Shown piece by piece: positions 1 through 7,394 of a stretch of DNA of 64,000 nucleotides. Under the pieces are notes generated by a model. The model saw only the letters and a list, made by a program, of their open reading frames with translations, was not told the origin of the DNA and did not search any database. Both the position numbers and the translations under genes were made by a program. The stretch comes from Arthrobacter koreensis (GTDB lineage: Bacteria; Actinomycetota; Actinomycetes; Actinomycetales; Micrococcaceae), in contig NZ_WACG01000003.1 of the NCBI RefSeq assembly GCF_009193255.1, positions 62,001 through 126,000 on the forward strand, read 5' to 3'. Every line of letters begins with the position of its first letter. The first letter of the stretch is position 1.

Positions 1-689
1 GGGAAGGTCACCGTGACGGTCTGGTCCTGGCGCATCTTGTAGACGTCGTCGTCCATGCGCAGCTCGTGGTTGGACAGCGGCGTCTCGTCCTTCCAGCAGT
101 ACGGGAGCACCCGGAAGCCGCTGTAGGTCAGGCCCTTTTCATGCAGGGTCTTGAACGCCCAGATCACCGACTCCATGTACTCGACGTTGAGCGTCTTGTA
201 GTCGTTCTCGAAATCCACCCAGCGTGCCTGGCGGGTGACGTAGTCCTGCCACTCGCCGGCGTACTTCATGACTGAGGCGCGGCAGGCATCGTTGAACTTG
301 TCGATGCCCATCTTCTCGATCTGCACCTTGTCGCTCATGCCCAGCTGCTTCATGGCCTCGAGCTCGGCGGGCAGGCCGTGGGTATCCCAGCCGAAGCGGC
401 GCTCCACGCGGTGTCCGCGCTGGGTCTGGTAGCGGGCCACCAGGTCCTTGACGTAGCCGGTGAGCAGGTGGCCGTAGTGGGGCAGGCCGTTGGCGAAGGG
501 CGGACCGTCGTAGAAGACGAATTCGTTGGAGCCGTCCTGCCCGGCGGGCCGTGCGTCAATCGAGGCCTGGAAGGTCCCGTCCTGGTCCCAGTACTTCAGG
601 ACCCGTTCTTCGATTTCGGGGAACCTGGGTGAGGACGCGGCAGCTTCGGAAGCATCACCGGTGGTGGCCTTGGGGTAGATCTGTGGCAT
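1..689 (-). CDS. ileS: isoleucyl-tRNA synthetase, N-terminal part (cut by window edge)
   Basis: Class I aminoacyl-tRNA synthetase that charges tRNA-Ile in the cytoplasm. The minus-strand reading frame is open to the window edge, so only about 229 N-terminal residues are visible. They include the class I signature as HYGH near residues 71-74, after the conserved PPFANGLP stretch, and the downstream WDTHGLPAE and [14 protein letters not shown]-type segments typical of IleS. I chose the ATG at 689 because an AGGA lies 8 bases upstream; an in-frame ATG at 698 is the alternative. The Ile-specific T-box leader just upstream supports IleS over the related Val and Leu enzymes. The editing and KMSKS regions lie outside the window. 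Confidence 0.95.
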
Positions 690-734
690 ATTCGTCATCC
701 TGATAGCGGCAAGTGAATCTGGCTGTAAAAACAG

Positions 735-945
735 GATGCAAGGGCGAACTCTGCCCGGCGCGAACGCCGGAGATAAGCCGCGGTACCACCTCGCTTGCCG
801 CCGTCGTACTCCCCTGTACCGGGTGCGCGACGGCTGCCGCTCATTGACTGCTGTGACGGGCTTACCCGTCCGGTTCTACTGGGCGCCTGGATCGGCGCTG
901 TTCTTCCGGAAGCTCACCGGTGATGGCCGGGTCAAAGCTGCTTGG
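735..945 (-). promoter_or_regulatory. T-box riboswitch of ileS, short stem I, probably translational
   Basis: Read on the minus strand, positions 792-778 carry the hallmark T-box sequence (GAGGTGGTACCGCGG), which binds the uncharged tRNA acceptor end. Further upstream, at 924-922, an ATC isoleucine codon lies inside a GCCATCACCGG hairpin context, matching the specifier loop of the ultrashort stem I ileS T-boxes known from actinobacteria. After the T-box comes a strong CCGGCG-TTCG-CGCCGG hairpin but no run of T, and the ileS ribosome binding site follows. I therefore infer control of translation initiation rather than transcription termination. Uncharged tRNA-Ile should turn ileS on. Confidence 0.9.
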
Positions 946-960
946 GCCAGTTTAGGCCAC

Positions 961-988
961 GGCCGGGGCGTCTGTCGAAGCCCCGGCC
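961..988 (-). terminator. GC-rich hairpin downstream of the SDR gene
   Basis: Perfect 9-bp inverted repeat (GGCCGGGGC at 961-969, GCCCCGGCC at 980-988) just after the SDR stop codon and upstream of the T-box. No T-run follows, so it is a terminator candidate of the GC-hairpin kind common in actinobacteria. Confidence 0.5.
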
Positions 989-997
989 GGCCACAGC

Positions 998-1741
998 TTA
1001 GCGGCGGATGACTTTGTGCTGTGCGGCCTGGGCCACCGGGCGGATGACCACCTGGTCCAGGTTGACGTGGTGGGGCGCGTTCAAGGCGTAGGCCATCACG
1101 TCCGCGACGTCGTCAGCGGTGAGCGGCTTCTCGACGCCGGCGTAGATTTTCTCCGCCGCAGCTGCGTCGCCGAGACGGTTCAGGGAGAACTCCTCGGTCT
1201 TGACCATGCCGGGCAGGATCTCGATGACGCGCACGTTGTGTTCGGCTTCCTCCAGCCGCAGTGCCTGTGTCATCGCTTCCTCGCCTGCCTTGGCGGCACA
1301 ATAGCCGGCTCCGCCCTCATAGGCTGCGAGCGCGGCGGTGGAGGTCAGCATCAGTATGGACCCCTCACCGTTCTCGCGCAGGGCAGGCAGGAAGGCCTGC
1401 GTGACGTTCAGTGCGCCCAGGACGTTGACGTTGTACATCCGAACCCAGTCCTGCGGATCGCCGGTTGCCACCGGGTCCATTCCAAAGGCGCCGCCGGCGT
1501 TATTCACGATGGCGTCCACTCCCCCATCAGCGAGCACTTGGCGGGCCAGGGACTCCACGGAGCTGCGGTCGGTGACGTCGCAGGCGATGGTCCGCGCACC
1601 GGTTTCCTCTGCGAGGTCCTTCAGCCGGTCTTCCCTGCGGGCGACGGCGATGACGTCCCAGCCCGTCTTCCGCAGGGCACGGACTGCTGCCGCACCGATT
1701 CCCGAGCTTGCTCCGGTCACTACCACGCGCTTGTTTGTCAT
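998..1741 (-). CDS. SDR family NAD(P)-dependent oxidoreductase
   Basis: Classical short-chain dehydrogenase of 247 residues. The Rossmann cofactor motif TGASSGIG is at residues 9-16, an NNAG motif follows near residue 80, and the catalytic YCAAK (YxxxK) lies near residue 150. An arginine pair (ARRE) after the second beta strand suggests a preference for NADP(H). It most resembles the YdfG/serine-3-dehydrogenase-like branch, but the substrate cannot be read from sequence. The gene stands alone between the ileS T-box and the repeat island. A TAGGGT element ends 7 bases before the ATG, so the transcript may be leaderless. Confidence 0.88.
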   Translation of the reverse strand: MTNKRVVVTGASSGIGAAAVRALRKTGWDVIAVARREDRLKDLAEETGARTIACDVTDRSSVESLARQVLADGGVDAIVNNAGGAFGMDPVATGDPQDWVRMYNVNVLGALNVTQAFLPALRENGEGSILMLTSTAALAAYEGGAGYCAAKAGEEAMTQALRLEEAEHNVRVIEILPGMVKTEEFSLNRLGDAAAAEKIYAGVEKPLTADDVADVMAYALNAPHHVNLDQVVIRPVAQAAQHKVIRR

Positions 1742-1748
1742 GACCGCT

Positions 1749-1754
1749 ACCCTA
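1749..1754 (-). promoter_or_regulatory. candidate -10 element for a leaderless SDR transcript
   Basis: TAGGGT on the minus strand, 7 bases before the SDR start codon and with no Shine-Dalgarno between. This is the spacing seen for leaderless actinobacterial mRNAs. Confidence 0.4.
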
Positions 1755-1829
1755 GCGAACCGCCTCAGGGTTGGCCCCGGTGCGCGTCGTGCTGTGTCGC
1801 CGGGGGGTGCCGTCGGCGTGTGCTGGGCT

Positions 1830-2130
1830 GATTCCCAGCCGTCGTTGCTGGTATGGCCGCCGGGACCTCGTGCCGGCGCACGTGCCGGCGCAGTTTCCCA
1901 GCCCTCGTTACTGGCGGGGCCGCCGGGACGCGTGACGGCCCAGTTTCCCAGCCCTCGTTACTGGCGTGGCCGCCGGGACGCGTGACGGCCCAGTTTCCCA
2001 GCCCTCGTTACTCCTGTGGCTGCCGGGACCTCGTGACGGCCCAGTTTCCCAGCCCTCGTTACTGGCGTGGCCGCCGGGACGCGTGACGGCGCAGTTTCCC
2101 AGCCCTCGTTGTTGGTTTGGCAGATGAGAC
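1830..2130. repeat. tandem array of a 50-nt unit (five clear copies plus a degenerate first copy)
   Basis: Copies start at 1891, 1941, 1991, 2042 and 2092. Each begins CAGTTTCCCAGCCCTCGTTAC and continues with a conserved GGCGTGGCCGCCGGGACGCGTGACGG tail part, so the whole 50-nt unit repeats. A diverged copy (ATTCCCAGCCGTCGTTGC) starts at 1831 with a 60-nt spacing. The fifth copy breaks off near 2110. Both halves of the unit are conserved, so these are not CRISPR repeats with spacers. The region from 1742 to 2576 has no convincing gene. Confidence 0.92.
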
Positions 2131-2136
2131 CCCAAG

Positions 2137-2330
2137 GGTCACTATCCGTCACAGACTCTGGGAAGGCGGGACAGCCCCAGGACGGCTTCTGCCCCCGAGT
2201 GGGAGCGTCGAGTTCACCGCCCGAGGGGACATTTGCGATGAAGGTCTGTCCTCTCGGAGACACTCCCCCGCGGCAGCAAGTCCTTTCCAGCGGCCGCGGT
2301 GTTTCACATCTGGGGATCCTCGTGCCCGTG
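2137..2330. other. non-coding spacer inside the repeat island
   Basis: No convincing gene. It contains one diverged repeat core in inverted orientation near 2151-2165 (ACAGACTCTGGGAA), resembling the right-hand array at 3611-3735, and an imperfect GAGGGGACA/TGTCCTCTC dyad near 2221-2257. Confidence 0.5.
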
Positions 2331-2560
2331 CAGTTTCCCAGCCGTCGTTACGTGTGTGGCTGATGAGACCTCGTGCCCGTGCAGTTTCCCAGCCGTCGTT
2401 ACGTGTGTGGCTGCCAGGGTCCGGTTCGAGCATGGCTTCCCAGGCTCCGTGGCAGAAGTGACCCGCGGGACGCCGTCCTGCACGGATTCCCAGGCTCCGC
2501 TACTGGCGAGACAGCTGAGACCCCATCAGCGCCGCACGCAACGACGGCTGGGATTCCCAA
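2331..2560. repeat. second repeat array, related to the 50-nt unit, plus an inverted copy at its end
   Basis: Two near-identical 51-nt copies start at 2331 and 2382 (CAGTTTCCCAGCCGTCGTTAC then GTGTGTGGCTG). Two more diverged cores follow with TTCCCA at 2437 and 2487, so the core recurs every 50-51 nt (2335, 2386, 2437, 2487) even where the sequence has drifted. At 2537-2552 the core appears in reverse orientation (GCAACGACGGCTGGGA), directly before the stop codon of the DUF559 gene. This inverted copy matches 16 bases of the outermost left copy at 1832-1848. Confidence 0.85.
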
Positions 2561-2576
2561 CATTCTCGGCGGTGCT

Positions 2577-3428
2577 TTAGGTACGGGCCAGAGCGGCCCG
2601 GACCAGACGGATGAACTCCTCCGGGCGGCGCAGGATCATCTCCGCGGTGATGCGCAGCGTTACGAGCCCACGGGCATTAGCCCGGTTCCATCTCGCCCGG
2701 TCATTCCGGTATTCAGCGCGGCCGCTGTGAAACTCGTAACCGTCCAGTTCGACGATGAGCCGGTCCCCAACCAGGAAATCGACCCTGCCCACACCTTCCA
2801 CCACCACTTCCCGCTGGATCTTAAACCCAGCAGCGCAGAGGTGATAGCGGGCGCAGACTTCCAGCGGAGATGCCGTCCTCCGGCCGAATCCCTCGAGAAG
2901 TGCACGGACCCGCCAGTCCTGTGGCCGGTTAAAGGCTCGGATCAGTGCGGCCTTCGAGACGGCGTTACGGGCGACGGCAGATTCGGCAATCACCAGTGCC
3001 TGCAGCGGAGGAAGGCACCGAAAGGCGTCCATGACGACGTCCGCCGGCAAACACACCAGCCTCGCCGCCGACCTTCTACCCCGATGGAGACAGATTCCGG
3101 GCATGTTTACAACCTTGTCGGCTCTCAGATGGAGGACCTCCGGCGACTCCAGGACCCACCAGCCCTGGACTTGAGCAGCTGAGACACATGTGAGGGAGGT
3201 CCCGAGTGAAGCCGCCGCAACCAGCTCCGGAGGAGCATCTTGAAGCCTGTAGTACCCGCGCCCGGCGCGCTGGAGGACGCCGCTGCGCTGCGCAGCCGTC
3301 GCCCTGGCACGGCCGAACCCGTTGGCTGCGAGCGCCCCGACGCTGATCACTCCATAGTGTGCCCGGCACACTGCTTCTATCGGGTGCACTGTTCTTAGCG
3401 CCTGTACGGCTTTCGGAGGCTCCACCAT
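2577..3428 (-). CDS. DUF559 nuclease-like protein with an N-terminal AbiEi-type winged-helix-like domain
   Basis: Protein of up to 283 residues. The N-terminal third (HYGVISVGALAANGF ... LQRAGRGYYRL) looks like the HTH domain shared with AbiEi-type antitoxins. The C-terminal part has the DUF559/Vsr-like restriction-endonuclease-fold pattern: SPLEVCARY, then VDFLVGDRLIVELDG, then a YRNDRARW segment. The acidic D and ExD residues fit a PD-(D/E)xK-type metal site. No good ribosome binding site precedes the ATG at 3428, so the true start could lie downstream. Families like this are multicopy in actinobacteria and functionally uncharacterised. Repeat arrays of one family flank the gene on both sides, mainly in opposite orientations. 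Whether the product cuts DNA is inference. Confidence 0.8.
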   Translation of the reverse strand: MVEPPKAVQALRTVHPIEAVCRAHYGVISVGALAANGFGRARATAAQRSGVLQRAGRGYYRLQDAPPELVAAASLGTSLTCVSAAQVQGWWVLESPEVLHLRADKVVNMPGICLHRGRRSAARLVCLPADVVMDAFRCLPPLQALVIAESAVARNAVSKAALIRAFNRPQDWRVRALLEGFGRRTASPLEVCARYHLCAAGFKIQREVVVEGVGRVDFLVGDRLIVELDGYEFHSGRAEYRNDRARWNRANARGLVTLRITAEMILRRPEEFIRLVRAALART

Positions 3429-3590
3429 CCAAGCTTGGACCGGGCATGCGCAACGAGTGCGGCCTGGGGCCGAACCTGTGGACGCGGTGGGGATTCACTC
3501 CCTGGGTCCGGAGCCGTGGAGGAAGACACGGCGCCGGTGGACAACTCCCGGCTCGCGGCTTCCCACCCGCCGTTGTCGCTGCATATCTGT
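3429..3590. other. non-coding upstream region of the DUF559 gene
   Basis: No gene seen. A diverged plus-orientation repeat core (TTCCCACCCGCCGTTGTCGCTG) lies near 3560-3581, facing the inverted array that begins a few tens of bases later. Confidence 0.5.
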
Positions 3591-3593
3591 GTG

Positions 3594-3760
3594 ACCCCAC
3601 CCGTCCCACGCGCAACAGAGACTGGGAACCACCGCACAGCCGACACCCCACCCGTCCCACCCGTAACAGAGACTGGGGACCAGCGGACAGCCGACACCCC
3701 ACCCGCGCCACCCGCAATACAGAGAATGGGAACTCCCGCACCGCCAGCGGCAGGAAGCCC
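3594..3760. repeat. right-hand repeat array, inverted relative to the left arrays
   Basis: Three copies with cores at 3618 (GAGACTGGGA), 3669 (GAGACTGGGG) and 3722 (GAGAATGGGA), spaced 51 and 53 nt. Each is preceded by CCCACCCGTCCCAC-like sequence, and a shared CAGCCGACACC runs between copies. On the minus strand the core reads TCCCAGTCTCTGTTAC, clearly related to TTCCCAGCCCTCGTTAC of the left arrays. The same family therefore borders the DUF559 gene on both sides. Confidence 0.8.
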
Positions 3761-3792
3761 ATCGAAGACAGGGACCCAGCGCGCAGCTCGCC

Positions 3793-3823
3793 CCAGGATT
3801 ACCCCCCCCAGGATTACCCCCTA
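3793..3823. repeat. short direct repeat of CCAGGATTACCCCC
   Basis: Two adjacent copies of a 14-nt sequence in the gap before the next gene. It shows no relation to the 50-nt family and may be simple slippage. Confidence 0.5.
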
Positions 3824-3873
3824 GGCAGACCCGCCGCCTCGGTCCCGGAAGAGGGCTGTGTAAAGCTAGTTCC

Positions 3874-4317
3874 ATGCCGCGCACCGACAGAATCCCTGCA
3901 TGGGTCCGCCGCACGGGCATCGAAGTGGCCGGCTGGACCCTCATTGTGCTGGGAGCTGCCGCACTCGTCCTGCCGGGACCGGGTCTGCTGATGCTGGTTG
4001 CCGGCCTGGCCATCTTGTCCCTGCGCTACCACTGGGCCAACCGCTGGTTGCACCCGGTCAAGGTGCAGGCCTACCGTGCTGCCGAGCAGGGCGTGCAGTC
4101 CTGGGCCCGTATTATCATCGCCCTGGCAAGTGCTTCCACCCTCATCGCTGCCGGAATCACCTGGGGACTGTGGCGCACGGTGCCGGACTGGTGGCCCCTG
4201 GAAGATCAGTGGTGGCTTCCGGGCGGCTGGACCACGGGCACGGCGCTCATCCTCTCCGGCTGCATTGCGATCGCCCTGGTGGGCTACAGCTATGTCAGGT
4301 TCAGGCCCAGCAAATAG
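3874..4317 (+). CDS. PGPGW-type putative transmembrane protein
   Basis: Membrane protein of 147 residues. The first hydrophobic stretch carries LPGPGLLMLVAGLAIL (about residues 33-48), the signature of the PGPGW/TIGR02611 family. Two further hydrophobic segments lie near residues 80-97 and 122-141, so three membrane helices are likely. The arginine-rich N-terminus suggests a cytoplasmic N-terminus. Function is unknown for the family. The stop codon lies inside the convergent DUF488 gene (overlap 4290-4317), so the two mRNAs overlap tail to tail. Confidence 0.8.
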   Translation: MPRTDRIPAWVRRTGIEVAGWTLIVLGAAALVLPGPGLLMLVAGLAILSLRYHWANRWLHPVKVQAYRAAEQGVQSWARIIIALASASTLIAAGITWGLWRTVPDWWPLEDQWWLPGGWTTGTALILSGCIAIALVGYSYVRFRPSK

Positions 4318-4667
4318 TCCCGCAGCACCACAGCCTCGTTCTCTTCCTCGTTCCGCGCAGCGAAGAGCAGGACAGTGTCCGGCCGGCCCACACACTGGGC
4401 TGCGAAGTCAGCCACGGCTCTGTTGCCCTCGAGCTCCTGGATATAGCGCTCCGTGAAGCCTTCCCAGCGCTCGGACCGATGGCCAAACCACTGGCGCAGC
4501 TCGTTATTCGGGGCGGCGTCCTTGAGCCACTCGTCAAGCTCCGCCCGGGCTTTGGAAACCCCGCGGGGCCAGAGCCTGTCCACAAGTACCCGGAAGCCGC
4601 CGTCGGGCTCTGCATAGATGCGCCGAACGCGCACCTGGGACGGATCCAGCCTGCCGATATCAGCCAT
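4290..4667 (-). CDS. DUF488 family protein (YeaO-like)
   Basis: Soluble protein of 125 residues. The VDRLWPRGVSK segment and the following ELDEWLKDAAPNNELRQWFGH region are characteristic of the DUF488/YeaO group, whose biochemical role is not established. A TAGCAT element ends 6 bases before the ATG with no Shine-Dalgarno, so a leaderless transcript is likely. Its 3' end overlaps that of the convergent PGPGW gene by 28 bases. Confidence 0.82.
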   Translation of the reverse strand: MADIGRLDPSQVRVRRIYAEPDGGFRVLVDRLWPRGVSKARAELDEWLKDAAPNNELRQWFGHRSERWEGFTERYIQELEGNRAVADFAAQCVGRPDTVLLFAARNEEENEAVVLRDYLLGLNLT

Positions 4668-4673
4668 ACACGG

Positions 4674-4679
4674 ATGCTA
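4674..4679 (-). promoter_or_regulatory. candidate -10 element for a leaderless DUF488 transcript
   Basis: TAGCAT on the minus strand with a 6-base spacer to the ATG at 4667, matching the usual spacing of leaderless promoters. Confidence 0.45.
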
Positions 4680-4778
4680 GGCGGTTGCGCACGCACCGGA
4701 AAGGTCCAGGCGGGGCCATGCGGCACGGCGCCGCGACACAGATGACGGCGGCACCGGCGCCCGTGGGAGAATGGCCCC

Positions 4779-7394
4779 ATGGCTGACAATATCCCGGGCA
4801 CAGACACGCCCGCTGCGACCGTTTCCGTTCCTGACAAACCCGCCCTCGAAGGGCTGGAAGAGACCCTGAGCCGCCGCTGGCGCGAAGAAGGCACCTACGC
4901 CTTCAACCCGGACACGGTCCGGGAAGAGGTCTACTCGATCGACACTCCCCCGCCGACCGCATCGGGTTCCCTGCACGTGGGCCACATGTTCTCCTACACC
5001 CAGACCGACGTCCTGGCCCGCTACCAGCGCATGAAGGGGAAGAACGTTTTCTACCCCATGGGCTGGGATGACAACGGCCTGCCCACTGAACGCCGGGTGC
5101 AGAACTACTACGGCGTGCGTTGCGATCCCACCAAGCCGTATGACCCGGACTACCGTCCCCCGGCAACGGCCCCGAAGAACCAGCGCGACTTCGACGTCAT
5201 CTCCCGCCGCAACTTCATCGAGCTCTGCGAAGAGCTGGCTGTTGAGGACGAAAAGGTCTTCGAGAACCTCTTTTCCACCCTTGGCCTGTCCGTCGACTGG
5301 ACCCGCACCTACCGCACCATTGACGACCACTCCCGCGCCGCCAGCCAGCGCGCGTTCCTGGAGAACCTGAAGGCCGGCGACGCCTACATGGCCGAAGCCC
5401 CCACCCTGTGGGACGTCACCTTCCGCACCGCCGTGGCCCAGGCCGAACTCGAAGACCGCGAACAGCCTGGCGCGTACCACCGCGTCAGCTTCCACGCGCC
5501 CGACGGCGAGAAGATCTTCATCGAGACCACCCGCCCGGAGCTCCTGCCGGCCTGTGTGGCACTCGTGGCACACCCCGACGACGAGCGCTACCAGCGCCTG
5601 TTTGGCACCACGGTGACGTCCCCGCTGTTCGACGTCGAGGTCGAGGTCAAGGCGCACCCGCTGGCTAAGCCGGACAAGGGCTCGGGCATCGCCATGATCT
5701 GCACCTTCGGCGACCTCACCGACGTCACCTGGTGGCGCGAGCTGAACCTGCCCACCCGCGCCGTGATCGGCCGTGACGGCCGCATCCTCACGGAAACGCC
5801 CGAGTGGATCAAGACCCCCGCCGCGCAGGAGAACTACGCCGCAGTCGCCGGCAAGACCGTCTTCAGCGCCAAGGAGGCCGTCGTGGAACTCCTCCGCGCG
5901 AGCGGCGATCTGGACGGCGAACCCAAGAAGATCACCCACCCGGTGAACTTCTTCGAAAAGGGCGACAAGCCGCTTGAAGTTGTCACCAGCCGCCAGTGGT
6001 ACATCCGCAACGGCGGCCGCGATGCCGACCGCCGCGAACGGCTCATATCCCGCGGCAAGGAAATCGACTTCCACCCCGCGTTCATGCGCTCCCGCTACGA
6101 GAACTGGATCGAAGGCCTCAATGGGGACTGGCTGGTTTCCCGTCAGCGCTTCTTCGGCGTGCCGGTTCCCGTCTGGTACCCGCTGGATGCCTCCGGCAAC
6201 CCGGACTATGACAACCCGATCCTGCCGTCGTTCGAGTCCCTGCCGGCTGATCCGGCAGCCGACCCGGCACCGGGGTACGAAGAGTCCCAGCGCAACCAGC
6301 CAGGCGGCTTCATTGGCGACGCCGATGTGCTGGATACCTGGGCAACCTCCTCCCTCACCCCGCAGATCGTGGGCGGGTGGGGTGTGGATGAGGACCTCTT
6401 CGCCAAGGTCTTCCCGTTTGACCTGCGCCCCCAGGGACACGACATCATCCGGACCTGGCTGTTCTCCTCCGTGGTGCGCGCCGATGCCCTGCAGCACGCT
6501 GCCCCGTGGAAGCATGCGGCAATCTCCGGCTGGATCCTGGATCCCGACCGCAAGAAGATGTCAAAGTCCAAGGGCAACGTGGTGGTACCCACCGATGTGC
6601 TCAACGAGTACGGGTCCGACGCCGTCCGGTACTGGGCTGCCTCGGCCCGCCTGGGCGCCGACACGGCCTACGAGATCGCCCAGATGAAGATCGGCCGCCG
6701 CCTGGCCATCAAGCTGCTCAACGCCTCCAAGTTCGTCCTGAACCTCGGCGCCACCGAAGCCAACGTGGTTGATGCTGACACCTCGGCGATCACCAATCCG
6801 CTGGACCAGTCGCTGCTCGTGCAGCTGGTGGACGTGGTCAACAACGCCACCAAGGCGTTCGAGAGCTACGACTACGCACGGGCGCTGCAGATCACCGAGT
6901 CCTTCTTCTGGTCCTTCACGGATGACTACGTTGAGCTGATCAAGGACCGCGCCTACGGTGCTGCCGGCGGCGCTGAGCAGGCCTCGGTGCTGGCCACCCT
7001 GGCCACCACCCTGGACTCGCTGCTCCGCCTGTTCGCCCCGTTCCTGCCCTTCGCCATCGAAGAGGTCTGGAGCTGGTGGCGCGCCGGATCCGTCCACCGC
7101 GCGTCCTGGCCCACCGTCGACGGCCTGGCCGCCGGCGTCTCCGGTGCCGACGCAGCAATTCTCGGAACCGTTGCCCAGGCTCTGGGCGGCATCCGCAAGG
7201 CCAAGTCCGAGGCCAAGGTCAAGCAGCGCACCGAGGTTCTCAACGCGGCCGTCACCGCCCCCGCGGCCCAGGTGGAACGCCTGCGTGCAGGCCTGCCGGA
7301 TCTGCTGGCAGCGGGCAACGTGCGGAACCTTGAGCTGGTGTCCGGCGACGGCGAGCTGTCCGTCAGCGGCGTCGAGCTGGCTCCCGCGGAGTAA
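4779..7394 (+). CDS. valS: valyl-tRNA synthetase
   Basis: Class I synthetase of 871 residues that attaches valine to tRNA-Val. HVGH is at residues 66-69 and KMSKS at 593-597. The MGWDDNGLPTERR block near residue 94 and the central editing domain (FIETTRPELLPACVALVAHPDDERY) are present. The anticodon-binding domain is recognisable (ESFFWSFTDDYVELIKDRAYG), and a shortened C-terminal arm ends the protein. At 871 residues it is shorter than the roughly 950-residue E. coli enzyme. A strong bidirectional terminator follows. ileS and valS lie within 5 kb of each other, but only ileS shows a T-box. Confidence 0.96.
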   Translation: MADNIPGTDTPAATVSVPDKPALEGLEETLSRRWREEGTYAFNPDTVREEVYSIDTPPPTASGSLHVGHMFSYTQTDVLARYQRMKGKNVFYPMGWDDNGLPTERRVQNYYGVRCDPTKPYDPDYRPPATAPKNQRDFDVISRRNFIELCEELAVEDEKVFENLFSTLGLSVDWTRTYRTIDDHSRAASQRAFLENLKAGDAYMAEAPTLWDVTFRTAVAQAELEDREQPGAYHRVSFHAPDGEKIFIETTRPELLPACVALVAHPDDERYQRLFGTTVTSPLFDVEVEVKAHPLAKPDKGSGIAMICTFGDLTDVTWWRELNLPTRAVIGRDGRILTETPEWIKTPAAQENYAAVAGKTVFSAKEAVVELLRASGDLDGEPKKITHPVNFFEKGDKPLEVVTSRQWYIRNGGRDADRRERLISRGKEIDFHPAFMRSRYENWIEGLNGDWLVSRQRFFGVPVPVWYPLDASGNPDYDNPILPSFESLPADPAADPAPGYEESQRNQPGGFIGDADVLDTWATSSLTPQIVGGWGVDEDLFAKVFPFDLRPQGHDIIRTWLFSSVVRADALQHAAPWKHAAISGWILDPDRKKMSKSKGNVVVPTDVLNEYGSDAVRYWAASARLGADTAYEIAQMKIGRRLAIKLLNASKFVLNLGATEANVVDADTSAITNPLDQSLLVQLVDVVNNATKAFESYDYARALQITESFFWSFTDDYVELIKDRAYGAAGGAEQASVLATLATTLDSLLRLFAPFLPFAIEEVWSWWRAGSVHRASWPTVDGLAAGVSGADAAILGTVAQALGGIRKAKSEAKVKQRTEVLNAAVTAPAAQVERLRAGLPDLLAAGNVRNLELVSGDGELSVSGVELAPAE

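Follow-up and report, generated by a model that had tools for sequence, protein, structure and literature searches.

The 64,000-nt stretch of Arthrobacter koreensis DNA analysed here (contig NZ_WACG01000003.1, positions 62,001 to 126,000; hereafter the window) carries a gene of the DUF559/MTES_1575 type that is bracketed by arrays of a short repeat. Palindromes built from this repeat flank the gene and are dispersed in intergenic regions, and in related genomes each resident DUF559 gene has a palindrome sequence of its own. The interpretation we favor, with a probability of about 0.6, is that a single-copy, vertically kept nuclease gene is accompanied by a private family of ~70-nt palindromes, an arrangement similar to the REPIN-RAYT systems but based on a different enzyme.

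The core of the repeat is TTCCCAG.C.TCGTTAC, which is in the + orientation to the left of the DUF559 gene and mainly in the − orientation to its right (Table 1). This confirmed the flanking arrays of mainly opposite orientation that had been described from the letters of the window alone (the sequence-only reading). The same reading took the unit to be ~50 nt long. A tandem period of 50–51 is present, but the unit that recurs in the other clusters of the genome is a convergent, inverted pair of 68–70 nt, and the repeat is better read as one half of an imperfect palindrome of that length, TTCCCA...TGGGAA. The 50-nt array in the window is a run of half-sites ended by one opposite half-site. Tandem Repeats Finder reported period 50 (4.6 copies, 91%) and period 51 (2.9 copies, 83%), and single cores were found in the − orientation ending at 2554, 3628, and 3679 and in the + orientation at 3560. 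The three window palindromes fold weakly as single-strand DNA (z −1.32, 0.25, and −1.98), and an Rfam scan of window positions 1–6000 gave no match up to an E-value of 1. A perfect 15-bp tandem duplication, CCCCAGGATTACCCC, borders the right array at 3791–3820.

Table 1. Features of the DUF559 locus and its neighbors (window positions).
Feature	Position	Strand	Remarks
Left array	1832..2112	+	Six tandem half-sites (1832, 1895, 1945, 1995, 2046, 2096), period mostly 50–51
69-nt palindrome TTCCCA...TGGGAA	2096..2164	.	Closes the left array
Second left array	2335..2503	+	Four half-sites (2335, 2386, 2437, 2487)
68-nt convergent pair TTCCCA...TGGGAT	2487..2554	.	One end mutated; immediately 3′ of the DUF559 gene
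DUF559/MTES_1575 gene	2577..3428	-	283 aa; AbiEi-like part (~residues 13–182) and Vsr/EDxHD-like nuclease domain (~185–283)
69-nt palindromic element	3560..3628	.	5′ side of the DUF559 gene
Right array	3612..3732	-	Three half-sites, period 51–53; third seen by eye and by the repeat finder
Short-chain dehydrogenase (SDR) gene	998..1741	-	Flanking; conserved neighbor of the DUF559 locus
PGPGW membrane protein gene	3874..4317	+	Flanking; same position next to DUF559 in G004, G006, and G014
DUF488 gene	4290..4667	-	Flanking; near the DUF559 locus in 12 of 20 other genomes of the genus

The core repeat cannot be attributed to chance, because with up to two mismatches it had 68 matches in the genome against five for the reversed pattern, and the strict pair TTCCCA-N56..58-TGGGAA occurred 25 times against none for the control. 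There were ~10 repeat clusters genome-wide, the DUF559 gene being in one of them, and most copies were located outside the window locus. Twenty of the 25 strict pairs fell within the ten clusters that were fetched, in which the half-site positions left free by the search pattern were conserved as well (G13 100%, T14 95%, C17 88%, T21/G22 90%). When related genomes were included, 32 of 33 strict elements lay outside called genes and the remaining one overlapped a weak 82-codon frame, a rough verdict as the gene calls came from a simple script that overlooked the DUF559 gene and found no gene at all in L059. Between convergent called genes sat 13 of the 20 own-genome elements, one of these overlapping a weak frame. 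Four of the ten clusters (L005:408–680, L011:3869–4112, L012:3772–4191, and L013:3594–3965) were ~0.3–0.5 kb from contig ends holding 5S rRNA sequence, which was recognized by Rfam for the L005 and L012 ends and by BLAST for the L011 and L013 ends. The element arrays there thus adjoin rRNA operons, which probably broke the assembly.

A relative of the DUF559 gene was detected in 21 of the 29 genomes of the genus, one in each at E ≤ 1e-8 (in G020 as two fragments of one gene). The window protein was used as the query because a PF04480 profile search of the own genome gave only two weak matches and failed to detect the window gene. The 20 other genomes fetched all had the DUF559 gene next to the dehydrogenase gene and near the tRNA synthetase gene of the window locus, which we read as the valyl type. 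The same neighbors in every case indicated that the DUF559 gene was vertically inherited at one place. The idea of the sequence-only reading that gene and repeats form one mobile unit was therefore not supported: across the genus the gene keeps to one locus, whereas palindromes are scattered through intergenic DNA elsewhere. In G004 (L047) and G011 (L062) the gene was inverted relative to its neighbors, as though flipped between the flanking repeats.

In 18 of the 21 gene-bearing genomes, strict elements, either TTCCCA pairs or the GTCCCAC type described below, were no more than 1.5 kb from the gene; the other three loci (L016, L025, and L031) had cores or pairs with altered ends. The number of 5′ copies found with a loose pattern in nine close genomes ranged from one (G017, G019, and G020) to seven (G010; eight by eye). 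Strict copy numbers across the genus ranged from 0 to 32, and the median, both patterns being summed by hand, was 8 in gene-bearing and 1 in gene-less genomes, from which G018 clearly departs. The eight gene-less genomes held six (G001), zero (G007), three (G008), zero (G013), 20 (G018), one (G022), one (G023), and zero (G024) strict TTCCCA pairs; these counts are upper bounds, since among the matches listed some resemble conserved coding sequence (e.g., two of the six in G001). Alleles of the locus that lack the gene do exist in relatives. In G013 the gap between the SDR and PGPGW genes was 152 bp with no strict palindrome, and in G001 the gene was absent and palindromes remained. Orthologous intergenic regions of two species, G003 (L134) and G002 (L129), differed by replacement of the whole region, ~440 bp with a palindrome against ~27 bp without one.

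Beyond the genus, relatives were found in 117 of 248 genomes sampled from the order at E ≤ 1e-10. Flanks were compared at 48 loci, 29 fetched by search and 19 paralogues, with control open reading frames (ORFs) from 20 of the neighborhoods; targets were delimited by tblastn matches and controls by ORF limits. Left and right flanks shared a repeat scoring at least 16 at 24 of the 48 DUF559 loci, compared with 4 of 151 other ORFs (p 6.6e-14; the p-values of the flank tests overstate independence because genomes of one genus recur in the sets). A palindrome of 60–95 nt was present on at least one side at 30 loci against 13 controls, and on both sides at 13 loci against one control. At a twentieth fetched paralogue locus, L158, tblastn gave no match; this locus entered neither this test nor the comparison of own with other flanks. 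The thresholds of the 48-locus test were chosen after an earlier left-right test that included genus loci had been seen, and they were reused for 20 later loci found with a Cellulomonas protein as the query. These later loci gave a left-right match in 14 cases and a palindrome on at least one side in 16. Four later loci from outside the order but within the same class (G556 and G566) showed one left-right match and palindromes on at least one side in all four, and the sole locus of another class (G343) was negative in the flank tests. The association of a nuclease-type gene with its own inverted-repeat set, as first proposed for the window, thus recurs across lineages.

The repeats were private to each gene. 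In 14 of 23 cases from genomes with several DUF559 genes, the left flank of a gene matched the right flank of the same gene, compared with 3 of 58 pairs of different genes, and the later set gave 13 of 15 against 1 of 44. Eleven elements, picked as clear palindromes or flank repeats, were searched jointly in their eleven genomes (E ≤ 0.01). Nine of these genomes held more copies of their own element (36 places by hand count), eight of them with copies distant from the gene. Off the diagonal, a match was found in 1 of 108 cells, the same-genus pair G165/G253, whose elements cross-match, being left out. Across 54 paralogue pairs from ten genomes, identity had a median of 33% and a maximum of 68%; for 11 of 37 paralogues the best match was in their own genome.

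Within the genus, the ends of the palindromes tracked the protein clade. Eight of the 20 aligned proteins (loci L025, L026, and L029–L034, from genomes G017, G028, G019, G009, G016, G027, G021, and G010, respectively) formed one group with a FastTree bipartition of 0.995, and the elements of this group start with GTCCCAC or ATCCCAC. The split gene of G020 was outside the alignment, and its locus was 99% identical to that of G019. A strict GTCCCAC...GTGGGAC search matched exactly nine of the 29 genomes, namely these eight and G020; in eight of the nine, copies were also present at a distance from the gene; the control pattern gave one or two matches in seven genomes. The switch of the ends to GTCCCAC is consistent with co-divergence of protein and palindrome.

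Modeling of the protein gave an AbiEi-type DNA-binding part joined to a homing-type nuclease of the Vsr/EDxHD kind. In structure, the C-terminal domain matched the homing endonuclease I-Bth0305I best, with XisH and TnsA further down the list. E190, D217, H234, and D243 were invariant in the 20 aligned proteins, and we read them as the putative EDxHD motif residues. The window protein scored 24.9 bits against Pfam PF04480 (cut-off 20.6). PADLOC gave weak AbiEi matches, apart from which nothing was found for or against a defence role of the locus. Another DUF559-type gene, belonging to a different subfamily, is present in the own genome (C11, L183:1967–2926). A gene similar to it occurs in G018 (L175:2169–3101), and weaker candidate matches occur in the other gene-less genomes. 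For these second genes of the genus (loci L175–L184), neither genus palindrome type was present in the DNA fetched around the candidate matches; in G018, L175 was the sole small DUF559-type gene found, with neither type within the 6 kb fetched.

Based on these features, a mechanism can be proposed. The AbiEi-like part would bind two inverted half-sites, probably as a dimer spanning the ~70-bp palindrome, and the Vsr/EDxHD-like domain would nick or cut at the bound palindrome. Cutting followed by repair or replication could then copy or amplify the elements and so produce both the tandem arrays next to the gene and the copies scattered elsewhere; the elements beside the gene might also put it under the control of its own product. 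Mobility of the palindromes is likewise a proposal; the number of elements at the locus varies between genomes.

Four other explanations were weighed. The first is that the palindromes are operators: the AbiEi-like protein would regulate its own gene, and perhaps others, the nuclease would be otherwise employed, and the dispersed copies would be sites of a regulon. PMC7319586 describes binding of AbiEi and Rv2827c to inverted repeats within the promoters of their own genes, and in the window, as in nine close genomes, the gene has a palindrome on its 5′ side. However, palindromes were also present on the 3′ side in the window and several relatives, and the arrays and the variation in copy number are unlike operators. 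The 13 elements between convergent genes and the four clusters beside 5S rRNA ends would also be poor places for operators, and we consider this explanation unlikely. The second is homing or gene conversion, in which the nuclease cuts gene-less alleles and the palindromes serve as recombination targets or ends. The sequence-only reading had guessed at a homing-like element, which agrees with the fold but not with a gene fixed at one locus in the genus. The palindromes, moreover, are dispersed and outlast the gene in G001, and a plain homing gene needs neither, which makes homing decidedly unlikely.

The third explanation, that ordinary intergenic hairpins such as terminators or structural repeats accumulated by chance near DUF559 genes, would account for the intergenic position of the dispersed elements, often between convergent genes, and several elements from relatives indeed fold as single strands better than shuffled sequences (z to −8.3). 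Generic hairpins would not be expected to show left-right identity, privacy for each paralogue, and copies almost solely on the diagonal, and chance is a very improbable cause. Hardly credible is an insertion sequence with DUF559 as transposase, palindromes as ends, and solo palindromes as remnants like miniature inverted-repeat transposable elements: the gene is bracketed by matching repeats, but no near-identical copies were seen in the genomes checked (≤68% identity) and the locus is fixed within the genus.

Several observations weigh against the nuclease-palindrome partnership that we favor. At 20 of the 48 loci the left-right match fell below 16 and no pair of palindromes bracketed the gene, and only 4 of 21 genus loci reached 16 in the left-right test, the null pairs of which included near-identical genomes (outlier 276). 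The first flank test gave 7 of 37 targets against 4 of 171 controls at ≥16, with a rank-test p of 0.53; this test was noisier, since it used longest-ORF bounds and several target ORFs were wrong-strand or overlong, and match-based bounds replaced these. G088 and G158 had no further copies of their own element at E ≤ 0.01. The window protein scored below the Pfam cut-offs for MTES_1575 (26.6 bits; cut-off 38.2) and AbiEi_4 (20 bits; cut-off 25). The end switch may be one event, because the nine GTCCCAC genomes are one clade. G016, G017, G019, and G020 carry the gene yet have only one or two strict elements, and G018 holds its 20 without an orthologue at E ≤ 1e-8. On visual inspection, the gene-less G001 locus (588 bp) contained a nearly complete palindrome as well as several half-sites; elements can thus outlive the gene. 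Comparison of G002 and G003, which are 91% identical over the DUF559 locus, yielded no clean empty site or target duplication.

The sequence-only reading had named free scatter of the arrays, with no link to DUF559 genes, as the pattern that would speak against it. This pattern was half borne out: the arrays are scattered away from the gene, and G018 has 20 strict pairs without the gene, but the link between gene and repeat holds across lineages, if not at every locus. Scattered copies together with a private resident gene are what a REPIN-RAYT-like system predicts.

More broadly, it is possible, at slightly less than even odds, that a REPIN-like system evolved a second time, independently, in actinobacteria. 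In it, AbiEi-EDxHD nucleases would each maintain and spread the private ~70-bp palindromes that their dimer binds and cuts, and paralogues of one genome would keep separate populations that do not cross-react. If so, the upkeep of palindromic repeat populations would not be confined to RAYTs, and a comparison of the two would reveal what is general. The many non-cross-reacting pairs of nuclease and palindrome would also form a natural panel for studies of DNA recognition. The palindromes offer a testable substrate for DUF559/MTES_1575 proteins of this type.

In the open-access literature, no description of DUF559-linked palindromes was found; subscription papers and preprints were outside the coverage. 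As in AbiE, the DUF559 protein has an AbiEi-like winged-helix plus a C-terminal domain, but unlike the AbiE antitoxins it bears an extra nuclease domain, and its neighbors at the window locus are SDR, PGPGW, and DUF488 rather than a DUF1814 (AbiEii) toxin. With EDxHD homing endonucleases it shares a predicted EDxHD/Vsr-type fold and the invariant acidic and His residues. In contrast to I-Bth0305I and Vsr, its gene is chromosomal in bacteria, has dispersed palindromes, was not seen in an intron, and encodes an AbiEi-like DNA-binding part. Unlike insertion sequences, it has no near-identical copies in the genomes checked, paralogues being at most 68% identical and each gene-bearing genome of the genus having one at E ≤ 1e-8.

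The closest parallel is REPIN-RAYT. As described in PMC3116915 and PMC2817692, such a system has one copy of its gene, with palindromes on both sides that belong to that gene alone and are dispersed outside genes as inverted doublets, and the gene keeps its position while the palindromes diverge. The enzymes differ, the RAYT being a Y1 HUH transposase (PF01797) and the DUF559 protein an AbiEi-like part with a Vsr/EDxHD-like nuclease; a PF01797 gene was found in none of the 29 genus genomes at E ≤ 0.01, and 6 of 14 control genomes were positive. Strict DUF559 elements also number only 0–32 per genome, whereas repetitive extragenic palindromes usually exceed 100, according to PMC2817692. The likenesses are that the DUF559 gene is bracketed by palindromes in the window and in the group as a whole, if not at every locus, that inverted doublets occupy extragenic space (25 strict copies in the own genome), that each copy of the gene has one private class of repeat, and that the gene holds a fixed position while its palindromes diverge.
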